From Haloferax sp. Q22 (GTDB lineage Archaea > Halobacteriota > Halobacteria > Halobacteriales > Haloferacaceae), in assembly GCF_001482285.1 (NCBI RefSeq), contig NZ_LOEP01000056.1, positions 1 through 64,000 on the forward strand: a stretch of DNA of 64,000 nt, read 5' to 3'. Shown here piece by piece: positions 33,216 through 57,870 of the stretch. A program made the position numbers and the translations under genes. The notes under the pieces are model-generated. The model ran no database searches and had not been told where the DNA came from. It was given only the letters and a program-made list of their open reading frames with translations. Each line of letters starts with the position of its first letter. The first letter of the stretch is position 1.

Positions 33216-33842
33216 TTAGAGTTTAATCGGGTCGCCGCGCTCCTTGCCGGCGAGCTGCTGGGGCATCGTCATGATGACCTGCGTGGTGCCGCCGGTCCGC
33301 GAGGTAATTTCGAGCGTGACGCGCTCGCCGGTGCCGAGACCGGTTCCGCCCTCAATGGCGGACGTGTTGATTTTGACCTCGTAGCGGTCGTTCATGCTGT
33401 TGAGGACGCCGAACGAACCGTCGTCGTCGGTGACCTCGTCCATCAGGAACTCGTTGCTGTCCGCGTAGGTACGAACGTCGTTGGTCTCTCCGTCGTCGGA
33501 CTGGTTGGTCAGCGTCGTGACCGTGTCGTCACTGAGGTACTTGATGGACGACTCGTTCATGTCGACGCTGGAGGAGCCGGCGGCGAGACGAATCGTGAGG
33601 GTCATGTTGTCGATGTCCTCGGAGTCGCCAACCGTACCGTGCGCGTTGAGGACTTCGACGCGGTTCGTGACCTTGTTCACGGACTGCTCGCCCGCATCTT
33701 CGGCCGTTGCCTGGAGGAAGCCAGCGGTGTTGACGAGGACGCCCGCCGCGATTGCGGCAACCAGGACCATCGCGATGAAGACGATGAGCGTTCCGATACC
33801 GACCTGACCTCTGTCTTCGTCGTTGAACAGTTCGCTAAACAT
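33216..33842 (-). CDS. arlA2: Archaellin, second copy
   Basis: Encodes 208 residues. The class III signal is [12 protein letters not shown], cut by prepilin peptidase before [24 protein letters not shown]. The beta-rich outer domain has NxS/T sequons (NMTL, NESS, NQSD, NTSA). It is nearly identical to the first copy over the N-terminal 45 residues and diverges in the outer domain. It follows arlA1 with no gap, so both are co-transcribed. Confidence 0.96.
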
Positions 33843-34475
33843 TTACAGTGCCACCGGGTCGTTGTTGTCCTTGCCCGCGAGCTGCTGGGGCATCGTCAGG
33901 ATGACCTGCGTCGTGCCGCCGTTGCGCGAGGTTATCTCGAGGGTCACCGATTCACCCGTGCTGAGGCCGTTCTTGTTCGCCCCTTCGATGACGGAGGTGT
34001 TGATGACGATCTCGAAGCGGTCGGTCTGGCTGTTGAGAATCGGGAACGAGGTGTCATCGTCCTGAATCTTACGGACCGCGAACTCGTCGTTTCCGGCGGT
34101 CGACCAGTTGATGCCGTCCGCGTTGTCCGTGTTGTTGTTGACGAGCGTCCGAGCCGTGTCGTCGCTGAGGTATTTAATCGTCGTGTTGTTCAGCGAGACC
34201 GAACCGGAACCGGCTGCCAGACGCGAGGTGAGGTTCACGAAGTCGACGCTCTTCGTCGACGTTCCGTTAACGATACCGTGAGTCGACACGACGTCGACGC
34301 GGTTCGTGACCTTGTTCACAGATTGCTGTCCGGCGTCCTCGGCGGTGGCTTGCAAGAAGCCAGCCGTGTTCACGAGGACGCCCGCCGCGATTGCGGCGAC
34401 CAGAACCATCGCAATGAAGACGATGAGGGTCCCGATACCGACCTGGCCCCGGTCTTCGGTGATGTTTTCGAACAT
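33843..34475 (-). CDS. arlA1: Archaellin, first copy
   Basis: Encodes 210 residues from [23 protein letters not shown]. Cleavage is expected between G and Q of DRGQ. The outer domain carries sequons (NGTS, NLTS, NNTT, NTSV). In Haloferax the first archaellin is the major filament subunit and the second modulates motility. An ORF extension to 34532 would add a peptide in front of the signal and is rejected. Confidence 0.96.
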
Positions 34476-34600
34476 GGGTTGTCGTGGGTTTGGTCCCACA
34501 CTCAGTGGGAGCGAGGAACCGTCACTCGTCAACTTGGAGAGGTGCTACATAACGCTACGGCCCTCAATATCAAGACTGATATCTGTCGGGCGGTACGTCG

Positions 34601-38982: not shown

Positions 38983-40062
38983 ATGACGAACGACGCAGCC
39001 GCCGCTACCGACGCTGATGTGACGTCCGAGTCCGACGAGACCGACGTGCCGACGGCCGTCGGCGTCAAGTTCGGGAGCGCCCGGACGGCGCTCGCCTTCG
39101 ACGACGGCGACGCGGCGAGGACGGTTCACCTCCCCTCGCGCCCGGCCGACGGCGAAGACGCGCTCACCGGCGACGAGGATGTCCACCACGATGGGGAGGC
39201 GGTCCGAGAGTCCCCCGAGCGAGTCGAGTCCATGCTCCGCTCGGGCGTGCCCGCGACCGTCCGCGACGCCGAGTCGTTCGAGCGGTTTGTCCGCGAACTC
39301 TGCGCGCGACACGACCTCCCCGCGGACAGCGCCGTCGTGTACGCGATTCCGACCGTCGACGACGATATCGGCCTTGCGAACTTCGGCACCGCGGTCGGCG
39401 AGTGCGGCATCGGTGAGGCGCTCGCGCGCGGATTCCCCGAGTCGCTGTGCGCGTCGATTCCGGCGCTCGGCGACGGAATCGAGGCGGTCGACGAGGTCTT
39501 TGTCGCGCTCAACCTCGGCGCGACGAACCTCGAAGCGTGCGCGTACCGACGCGGAGAGCGGTTGCTTCCGTTCGTCTCCGCGGAGGCGTCCGGTGACCGC
39601 GTCGACCGACGCATCGCCGAGGCGGTCGAAGCCGAGACGGGTGGGCGAGTGACGGTCGATCCCGCCACCGCCCGCGAGTACAAGGAGACCCACGCCGACT
39701 TCGGCGGGTTCGAGCCCTTCACCGACGCGGTCGAACGCGGGAACGAGGGGGCACACGAGTTTACCGTCGAGCGGGGCGTGATGGAGCCGTTGGACGAGTA
39801 TCTCGACGACGTGGTCATCGAGCTCGGCGATTTCTTCTCGCGACTGGCGAGCTCGCACATGAAAACCTATCAGCTCGCTCGCGCTCGCCCGCTCGTCGTC
39901 TCCGGCGGGATGGCGTGCATTCCCGGACTGGTCGAGGAACTCGAAGCGCGGCTCGCCGCGGAACTCGACCGCCCGGTGAACGTGGTCGTCCCCGACGACC
40001 CGGTGACCGCCGCGGCCGAGGGCGCACACAGGCTCGCGGTGCGGCTCCGCGACGCGGCCTAA
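38983..40062 (+). CDS. Actin/Hsp70-fold ATPase in the motility locus
   Basis: Encodes 359 residues. After a disordered acidic leader, GVKFGSARTALAF looks like phosphate loop 1, VFVALNLGATNLEACAYRRGE like phosphate loop 2, and ARPLVVSGGMACIPGLVEELEARL like the adenosine motif of the actin/MreB/Hsp70 superfamily. The end PVTAAAEGAHRLAVRL resembles the MreB-type C-terminal helix. No known haloarchaeal actin (such as salactin or volactin) is obviously identical. It follows arlD by 105 bases in the same direction. A role in placing or holding the motor is a guess from context. Confidence 0.75.
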   Translation: MTNDAAAATDADVTSESDETDVPTAVGVKFGSARTALAFDDGDAARTVHLPSRPADGEDALTGDEDVHHDGEAVRESPERVESMLRSGVPATVRDAESFERFVRELCARHDLPADSAVVYAIPTVDDDIGLANFGTAVGECGIGEALARGFPESLCASIPALGDGIEAVDEVFVALNLGATNLEACAYRRGERLLPFVSAEASGDRVDRRIAEAVEAETGGRVTVDPATAREYKETHADFGGFEPFTDAVERGNEGAHEFTVERGVMEPLDEYLDDVVIELGDFFSRLASSHMKTYQLARARPLVVSGGMACIPGLVEELEARLAAELDRPVNVVVPDDPVTAAAEGAHRLAVRLRDAA

Positions 40063-54842: not shown

Positions 54843-55160
54843 TCACCCGTCGTCCGCAGACGCTTCCTCACGGTGAGCGGCCGCCGTAACGTAGACGCCG
54901 GGCATGTCCGTCTCCTCGACGGTCAGCGTCACCTCCTCGTCCTCGTCGACGTGGCGGTCGGTCACGACGGTCACCGCCTCGATGGGGTCGCGGCGGACGA
55001 ACGCCCAGATGAGGTCGAGTATCGAGGGGTGACCGCCCTTCCGGACGACGAGCACGTGGCGCGAGTCGGCCAGCGCCCGGAGTTCGGGCGACAGGTCCTC
55101 TTCGTCGAGTTCGTCCGGCGGGATGGCGTGCAGCACGTCGCCTCGAATCGTCTCGGTCAT
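54843..55160 (-). CDS. Small acidic conserved haloarchaeal protein
   Basis: Encodes 105 residues from MTETIRGDVLHAIPPDELDEEDLSPELRALADSRHVLVVRKGG. An alpha/beta pattern with a hydrophobic core (HVLVVRKGGHPSILDLIWAFV, AVTVVTDRHVD) but no known motif. It may be a small domain of a family shared by haloarchaea, I cannot name a function. The frame is open upstream to 55337 but the N-terminal 59 residues are Arg/Ser-rich and lie in the structured region, so they are excluded. Confidence 0.7.
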   Translation of the reverse strand: MTETIRGDVLHAIPPDELDEEDLSPELRALADSRHVLVVRKGGHPSILDLIWAFVRRDPIEAVTVVTDRHVDEDEEVTLTVEETDMPGVYVTAAAHREEASADDG

Positions 55161-55257: not shown

Positions 55258-55470
55258 AAAAGGCGGAGGCGAATTCGCCTCCCGCCGAATCTCGTGTCAC
55301 CAGTTGGCGAAGTGAGACGAGGGGAGTGCACCCCCACCGGGCTTGGGGGCGCGAAACGACGTGGCCACGTCGTTTCTGATGCCGCAACGGACCCCGAAAC
55401 GTTGCGGCGGGTGCGGCGGATGTGGAGTCGCCGACGACTGGCGAGAAAAGCGCCTATTGCGTCGGCGACT
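55258..55470 (-). ncRNA. Candidate structured RNA with own TATA box and terminator
   Basis: Read on the minus strand from about 55470, this stretch forms a run of hairpins: a 10-bp stem pairing 55461-55470 with 55426-55435; a 9-bp stem pairing 55400-55408 with 55381-55389; a perfect 24-bp palindrome at 55353-55376; a CCCCC/GGGGG hairpin at 55333-55349 or so; and a GC-rich terminal hairpin at 55262-55286 followed by TTTT at 55258-55261. A TATA box lies about 25 bases upstream. No acidic protein is encoded. It lacks the signature segments of SRP RNA and RNase P RNA. It could instead be the 5' leader of the 54843-55160 gene. Confidence 0.35.
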
Positions 55471-55488
55471 TTCGCTTAGGAGCCGCGA

Positions 55489-55498
55489 TGTATAAACC
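55489..55498 (-). promoter_or_regulatory. TATA box next to the hairpin cluster
   Basis: Minus-strand GGTTTATACA is placed so that transcription would begin near 55468-55470, exactly at the first base of the outermost stem. The same bases read TGTATAAACC on the plus strand, but no plus-strand gene follows. Confidence 0.5.
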
Positions 55499-55589
55499 CA
55501 CCGCAACACGGGTTCCCACGCCCCGTGAGCCCACGGATCTTGGGGTTCGTCGCTTCGGACTCATCGTGAGTGAGCGGTCGTCTTCGGCC

Positions 55590-56021
55590 TCAGGCGGTCG
55601 CTTCGAACTCGCGCCGGAGCGCCGATTCGAGGTTGTCGAGTTCGCGGTCGAGATTGCGCTCGAAGAACGCCTCTACACCCGGCAACCGGCCGTCGACGGT
55701 GAACTCGTTGACGAGGCGGCTGCCGCCGTCGCGCTCTTCGATGGTGTGTTCGCCCGTCACCCGCATCACCCGTGACTTGCCGACGAACTTGACGTGCGTC
55801 GGCTCGTCGACTTCGATGTCTTCGGTCTCGACGGTCACCGTCGAGCGGATGAGCGGAATCGGCAGTTCGAGGTACCACGTCGCGTGGCGTCCGTCGTCGG
55901 CCACGTCGAAGCGGTCGACGACGCTGATAGCCTCCGCTCGCTTGGCCGGGTCGGCGATAAACTCCCAGACGCGCTCGCCGGGAGCGTCGAACTCGAAGGT
56001 TCGTTTCACGCGGACGGTCAT
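55590..56021 (-). CDS. SRPBCC (START-like) domain protein
   Basis: Encodes 143 residues. Typical of the polyketide cyclase/CoxG-like SRPBCC fold: MTVRVKRTFEFDAPGERVWEFIADPAKRAEAI at the start, VETEDIEVDEPTHVKFVGKSRVMRVTGEHTIEE in the sheet and a long final helix (GVEAFFERNLDRELDNLESALRREF). It should bind a small hydrophobic ligand; the ligand is unknown. A 43-base spacer separates it from the next gene upstream on the same strand. Confidence 0.88.
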   Translation of the reverse strand: MTVRVKRTFEFDAPGERVWEFIADPAKRAEAISVVDRFDVADDGRHATWYLELPIPLIRSTVTVETEDIEVDEPTHVKFVGKSRVMRVTGEHTIEERDGGSRLVNEFTVDGRLPGVEAFFERNLDRELDNLESALRREFEATA

Positions 56022-56533: not shown

Positions 56534-56685
56534 GTTTCCGACCTTCGCGGGTGCGCACTTAGTTCATTCGACACCACCTGTCGTGGGGTAGCGTGACGGG
56601 GTCCGGGCGTGCGGTGTGGCCCCACGGACCAGTCTCGCGCTCGGCCGTTCGACATATGTACCACCAGTCTCGTGTGTCCACAACG

Positions 56686-57870
56686 ATGGGACTGACATCC
56701 GCGTTGTTCGGCGGAAAACTCCGTATCGCACTCGTCGCGCTGGTGCTCGTCGCGGCCGGCGTCGGCGGGGCGTACGCGACCGGCGTCATCGGCGCGCCGA
56801 GCGTTGACCGGGTCGACAACCGGTTCGCCGGGGTCAACGAGACGGAGACGGTCATCGAGACCGACCTGTACGTCTCGAACCCCAACCCGCTTTCGGCGAA
56901 CCTCTCGGGCCTCGAAGTCGACTACGGCGTCGAGATGAACGGGATTCAGATGGCGACGGGCGAGAAGGAAGGCGTCGCTATCGGGCGGGGGACCACGGCG
57001 GTCCCGCTCCGGACGACGCTCGAAAACGAGCGCATCCCCGAGTGGTGGGTCTCACACATCCAGAACGGCGAGCACACCGACCTCGTCGTGGACGCCAACG
57101 TCTCCTCGGAGACGCTCGGGCGGACCTTCGAAGCGCCCGAGATAACCCGGAGCATCGACACCGACCTGCTGTCGGCGTTCAACTCCACGGAGACCCGCGA
57201 GATAGACGCGAACTCGCCGGTCGTCTCGGACCCCGTGTTGTACGTCAACGAGACGAGCGCCGAGTGGGGCGAGTCCACGGGCGAGCGCACGGCGCTCGAA
57301 CTCACGTTCGTCGTCCACAACCCCAAGCCGTACCCGATTGCGGTCTCCGAACTCGGCTACGATATCTCCATGAACGACGTGGACGTGGGCGAGGGGACGA
57401 CGAACTCCGAGTACGTCATCCCCCCGCAGTCGACCGAGACCATCGAGGCGACGACCTACATTCAGAACGACAAACTCGACGAGTGGTGGGTCTCGCACCT
57501 CGAACGCGACCAGACGACCGACCTGCGCATCGACTTCTACGCGAACCTCGACGCCGGCGGCACGACCCTCCGCGTTCCGCTCGACCCGCTGACCTACGAA
57601 AAGACGTTCGAGACGGACATCTTCGGGAACAAGGCGGCGTCGGAGGGGAACGAGACGGCGACCGAGACGACGGCGACGGCGACCGAGACGGCCACGGAAA
57701 CTGCGACGACCACCTCGACCGCGACTGCAACTGAGACTTCGACAGACACCGCGACGGCGACAACGACGACAACCGAGACGACAACGACGACAACCGAGAC
57801 GACAACGTCCGCGACAACGACCACGTCGTCAGACGGCGGGACCACCACGACCGACGACGGCCTCCTGTAG
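56686..57870 (+). CDS. Anchored double LEA14/WHy-domain protein with Thr-rich tail
   Basis: Encodes 394 residues from MGLTSALFGGKLRIALVAL. One N-terminal helix is followed by two repeats of an LEA-type (WHy) beta domain, each with the pattern TDLYVSNPNPLSANLSGLEVDYGVEMNG or LTFVVHNPKPYPIAVSELGYDISMND, and each followed by EWWVSHI/L. After about residue 345 the protein is almost all Thr, Ala, Glu and Ser (TETTTTTTETTTS), a probable glycosylated wall-spanning stalk. It is likely cell-surface. The TATA-like CATATGTA about 30 bases upstream supports the 56686 start; the upstream ATG at 56593 is rejected. Confidence 0.82.
   Translation: MGLTSALFGGKLRIALVALVLVAAGVGGAYATGVIGAPSVDRVDNRFAGVNETETVIETDLYVSNPNPLSANLSGLEVDYGVEMNGIQMATGEKEGVAIGRGTTAVPLRTTLENERIPEWWVSHIQNGEHTDLVVDANVSSETLGRTFEAPEITRSIDTDLLSAFNSTETREIDANSPVVSDPVLYVNETSAEWGESTGERTALELTFVVHNPKPYPIAVSELGYDISMNDVDVGEGTTNSEYVIPPQSTETIEATTYIQNDKLDEWWVSHLERDQTTDLRIDFYANLDAGGTTLRVPLDPLTYEKTFETDIFGNKAASEGNETATETTATATETATETATTTSTATATETSTDTATATTTTTETTTTTTETTTSATTTTSSDGGTTTTDDGLL
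57650..57850 (+). repeat. Low-complexity Thr-rich coding repeat
   Basis: Imperfect repeats of ACNGANACG triplets encode the Thr/Ala/Glu tail of the LEA-domain protein. Not an independent element. Confidence 0.7.

Follow-up and report, generated by a model that had tools for sequence, protein, structure and literature searches.

What does a gap packed with hairpins encode in a haloarchaeal genome? Between an SRPBCC gene and a DUF7526 gene of Haloferax sp. Q22, in the stretch of 64,000 nucleotides analyzed here (the window), several inverted repeats lie behind a TATA box, and an earlier note, made from the sequence alone, left two answers standing: a stand-alone RNA or the 5' leader of the DUF7526 gene (54843-55160). 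The comparative analysis described below argues for the first of these. Whereas the individual RNA is already known from a single species, H. volcanii, what is new is an order-wide family of structured RNAs that carries an almost invariant CGCUUUUC(U/A)CG hairpin.

Hairpins and promoter of the locus

On the minus strand, positions 55258-55470 form six hairpins, namely P1 to P5 and, at the 3' end, a GC hairpin with UUUU behind it (Table 1). The cluster described in the earlier note is real on this strand, although it counts six hairpins and not the five inverted repeats that had been reported in about 210 bases; the perfect 24-bp palindrome, which is P3, and the terminal GC hairpin followed by TTTT are both found where they had been placed. 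Dinucleotide shuffles fold at -96.1 kcal/mol (sd 4.8) and the minus strand at -120.7 kcal/mol, which gives z = -5.15; none of 200 shuffles folds as well. The impression that the hairpin density lies far above background is borne out by this z-score and by the conservation of hairpins and promoter in 15 of 15 genomes of the genus. The RNA gene extends from about 55470 to about 55316 or 55258. The mature RNA may end before P5, and the 3' GC hairpin with its UUUU is a possible terminator or processing end; the sequence of this hairpin varies among species, yet most of them keep some hairpin at this place.

Table 1. Elements of the RNA gene and its promoter in the window.
Element	Position	Strand	Description	Support
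BRE-like element	55497..55504	-	G-rich GCGGTGGG, directly 5' of the TATA box	conserved in the Haloferax alignment
TATA box	55491..55496	-	TTTATA	sequence; pattern searches
-10 'WW' promoter element	55476..55477	-	A/T	same offset in 87-90% of 129 copies
P1 (5' hairpin)	55426..55470	-	arms 55426-55436 / 55460-55470, perfect 11-bp outer stem; inner stem GGCG/CGCC, loop CUUUUCU; apex almost invariant CGCUUUUC[U/A]CG	compensatory changes in 8/13 pairs
Linker	55409..55425	-	CCACAUCCGCCGCACCC, C-rich, unpaired in the consensus fold	CCGCCGCAC enriched among non-redundant copies
P2	55381..55408	-	GCCGCAACG-UUUCGGGGUC-CGUUGCGGC; arms 55381-55389 / 55400-55408, perfect 9 bp	compensatory changes in 7/9 pairs; GGGGUCC-loop hairpin in 46/129 copies vs 0.2 expected
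P3	55353..55376	-	24-nt perfect palindrome, genus-specific	kept via a G-U pair in two species
P4	55328..55352	-	arms 55328-55336 / 55344-55352; CCCGG loop	compensatory pairs within Haloferax; CCCGG-loop hairpin in 47/129 copies vs 5.2 expected
P5	55291..55321	-	CUCGUCUCACUUCGCCAACUGGUGACACGAG	fold and consensus; found within the genus only
3' GC hairpin and UUUU	55258..55282	-	hairpin 55265-55282, TTTT 55258-55261	

The TATA box sets the predicted start at about 55466-55470, at the base of P1, in agreement with the earlier proposal that transcription would begin at the first stem. Both the TATA box and the start position are conserved throughout the order. Among 129 non-redundant haloarchaeal copies, the distance from TTT(A/T) to P1 is 26 nt in 103 and 25-27 nt in 126, and the BRE-like position is G-rich across the set.

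A protein-coding reading was rejected: the overlapping ORFs have no Pfam match, as expected from the remark that no protein fits, the RNA strand has no ATG, and the indels between species are not multiples of three. Searching the window with cmscan and Rfam 15 gave no match at the gathering threshold, and permissive thresholds added only sub-threshold chance matches near the locus, none of them credible. RNase P RNA (RF00373) and archaeal SRP RNA (RF01857) are likewise stable, structured, spread throughout the haloarchaea and usually present in one copy. However, they are encoded elsewhere in the genome (their covariance models have no match at this locus and find the true copies on other contigs) and have no similarity to the RNA by cmscan.

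Spread and covariation of the RNA

The RNA gene is present in all 15 Haloferax genomes, and in their alignment the flanks have diverged around a conserved block of promoter, P1, linker, P2 and P3/P4 region; some stem pairs have already changed on both sides within the genus. BLAST did not find full-length relatives outside it, and this blindness explains why sRNA500, the H. volcanii RNA discussed below, had been seen as unconserved. A covariance model built from the genus copies and run on 170 genomes of the family matched in 86 of them, in 17 of 28 genera, and 40 family copies have in common the P1 apex CGCUUUUCUCG, a C-rich linker that contains CCGCCGCA and the P2 loop GGGGUCC. A core covariance model widened the family to the whole order. 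Since GC-rich genomes can produce weak covariance matches that are false, the spread was tested independently with a pattern in which a TATA box, a fixed distance, GCCR and then the apex had to follow one another, with the reversed pattern as control. The strict pattern was found in 151 of 392 haloarchaeal genomes (control, one match). In one large family the apex reads CGCUUUUCACG, and a generalized pattern matched 323 of the 392 genomes, representing 82 of 95 genera (reversed control, about 10 genomes). Halorubrum, Halobacterium, Haloquadratum, Haladaptatus, Halorhabdus and Halobellus are among the genera with the RNA. Usually there is one copy per genome, often in the same genomic position. 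One genus of a single family (f17) has almost no pattern match, through either absence or divergence. The strict pattern, which is also blind to the A-loop variant, had no match in 242 other genomes of the phylum. By these searches, the RNA is a member of a family present in most haloarchaea.

The absence of compensatory changes in relatives had been named beforehand as grounds for giving up the RNA. In the 40-copy alignment, 15 of 22 core pairs have undergone compensatory double changes and 93% of the cells pair; none of 500 shuffles matches the covariation values, and shifting the pair partners abolishes the signal. The sequences of the P1 stem vary greatly, yet most of the 129 non-redundant copies retain the pairing, as scored with an automatic stem finder that misplaced a few stems. 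Within the helices G-U occurs 40 times and A-C 3 times, which identifies the minus strand as the RNA. Pyrimidine motifs, e.g., CCCGCCTCC, are enriched downstream, and a single seed sequence is not obvious because the 3' half differs strongly among families.

Genomic setting and probable identity with sRNA500

Genes in the window are arranged in the order Pro_dh, HTH_10, Aldedh, DUF7526, RNA and SRPBCC. In many genera, a DUF7123 helix-turn-helix gene, the SRPBCC gene and a nitrilase-like gene precede the RNA, which is followed by a convergent gene, often for an aldehyde dehydrogenase. This conserved synteny marks the RNA copies as orthologues. The nitrilase-like gene between SRPBCC and the RNA is missing in Haloferax (55500-55600 in the window), Halogeometricum and Halobellus, which is read from the sequences as a lineage-specific loss or insertion. 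DUF7526 occurs in only part of the genus, and elsewhere the RNA directly faces the convergent dehydrogenase; a search of viral contigs with the DUF7526 protein gave no match. Positions 56593-57870 encode a LEA_2-domain protein whose long C-terminal tail is rich in Thr.

We regard the locus with high confidence as a stand-alone structured RNA gene on the minus strand. Its position on the same strand and 3' of the SRPBCC or nitrilase-like gene in many genera would also suit a 3' UTR element, or an RNA derived from the 3' end of the upstream SRPBCC transcript (gene at 55590-56021). This origin is improbable, however, in view of the TATA box and -10 element that the RNA has for itself at near-fixed spacing in almost all copies, and of Haladaptatus, Halospeciosus and Salinarchaeum, in which the RNA is kept where no upstream gene of the set was found. 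Of the two answers offered by the earlier note, the stand-alone RNA has held and the leader has not. DUF7526 is indeed the next gene on the same strand in the window, but several Haloferax species carry the RNA without this gene downstream, so the RNA is not its leader. Relatives have either another gene downstream or a convergent one, the latter being the case for the next identified gene in most other genera; moreover, a hairpin with UUUU closes the element ahead of the gene and Rfam has no cis-regulatory match to it, all of which makes a 5' leader or riboswitch of DUF7526 highly implausible. Equally little is to be said for an element acting as DNA, such as protein-binding palindromes or an origin-like structure, since, although P3 is a perfect DNA palindrome, only one of the strands tolerates G-U (40 G-U vs 3 A-C), stems covary while loops are kept, a promoter stands in front of the element and a transcript has been reported in H. 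volcanii (PMC3956466).

This transcript is sRNA500 (HVO_1187s), a 155-nt RNA on strand F of the H. volcanii chromosome (1080188-1080342) that was detected by RNomics, prediction and high-throughput sequencing (PMC3956466). The genes of the window have the same order and orientation as HVO_1187-HVO_1191 and the flagellin region of H. volcanii, in which HVO_1191 is proline dehydrogenase, HVO_1189 P5C dehydrogenase (PMC6801745) and HVO_1210/1211 the flagellins (PMC3956466). From this order and the identities of HVO_1191 and HVO_1189, the RNA falls between HVO_1188 and HVO_1187, two genes from HVO_1189 and on the far side from HVO_1191. It runs from SRPBCC to Aldedh, i.e., toward rising HVO numbers, which corresponds to strand F. 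Slot and strand relative to the neighbors are thus those of sRNA500, and the size is compatible, 155 nt spanning P1 to P4. Gene order, naming and strand together make it quite probable that the RNA is the orthologue of sRNA500. Two other conserved RNAs were weighed and rejected: HVO_2908s, found in extracellular vesicles (PMC10927574), has as neighbor the tRNA methyltransferase gene HVO_2906, which is absent around the RNA, and for sRNA_83 (182 nt; PMC12482152) there was no support.

Earlier work portrays haloarchaeal sRNAs as little conserved and rapidly evolving, with 22 of 27 confined to H. volcanii, among them sRNA500, for which Table 5 of the same study lists no homologue in any other haloarchaeon (PMC3956466). 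The spread across the order contradicts this reported lack of homologues: what had been published as confined to one species on the basis of BLAST is here an order-wide family with a defined structure, to which sRNA500 was matched by order and strand. Deletion mutants of sRNA500 are viable, swarm at 29% of wild type and reach a growth yield in paraquat of 129%, phenotypes that come from one study (PMC3956466).

Possible modes of action and meaning of the family

The RNA probably works in trans as a ribonucleoprotein, i.e., as a protein-bound regulator. A conserved RNA-binding protein would dock at the P1 apex. One candidate is the Sm-like protein Lsm with its preference for U-rich RNA; as a sign of association with Lsm/SmAP1, the U-rich apex is no more than suggestive. 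The linker, C-rich and unpaired, and the hairpin loops would pair with G-rich stretches in target mRNAs and in this way alter, among others, genes needed for swarming, and the fold may be stabilized by a contact between the P2 and P4 loops (CGGG with CCCG). Haloarchaeal mRNAs are mostly leaderless. In the RsaE group of bacterial sRNAs, which are structured and have C-rich loops, exposed C-rich segments could meet G-rich ribosome-binding sites; this likeness is a lead only, and no homology with the RNA is expected. A simple duplex screen against the gene starts in the window, a weak screen, did not favor the flagellins. Taken as a whole, a trans-acting, protein-bound RNA that contacts mRNAs is put forward tentatively.

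About 21 kb from the RNA is a motility and chemotaxis cluster (16814-45650) with CheR, CheF, archaellum assembly genes, CheC and CheD. Tandem flagellins are found at 33216-34532, and a gene for salactin, an actin-like filament protein, at 38983-40062 within the same region. In the 3.5-kb flanks of the RNA that were compared across other genera, no motility gene was noted.

A conceivable, slightly less likely alternative to regulation through mRNA contacts is that the RNA sequesters proteins or serves as a scaffold, binding through P1 (and the P2/P4 loops) in the manner of 6S, 7SK and Y-type RNAs and without pairing to mRNAs. This would agree with the fact that conservation is highest in a hairpin apex and not in an unpaired seed, that the P1 stem drifts while its apex stays, and that linker and tail sequences vary among families. 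On the other hand, the C-rich motifs CCGCCGCAC and CCCGCCTCC are enriched too, and no protein partner is known. At a more general level, the RNA might be a core haloarchaeal RNA, spread within the group like RNase P and SRP RNA. It would form a ribonucleoprotein via the P1 apex, which almost every known copy has kept, and its general role would become visible only as motility and redox phenotypes on deletion; this, too, is speculative.

No description of the family, its structure, its order-wide spread or its promoter was found in the open-licence literature, an earlier account elsewhere being possible, and searching the literature for the loop sequence brought up nothing relevant. In all, most haloarchaea have an sRNA that was supposed to be species-specific, its stems covarying and its loop near-invariant, which suggests that BLAST-based estimates of conservation are too low for archaeal sRNAs. 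The RNA family thereby revealed had been overlooked; it has a phenotype related to swimming and offers a tractable target, combining the genetics of a model organism and an available deletion mutant, strongly impaired in swarming, with a sharp motif for the search for partner proteins.
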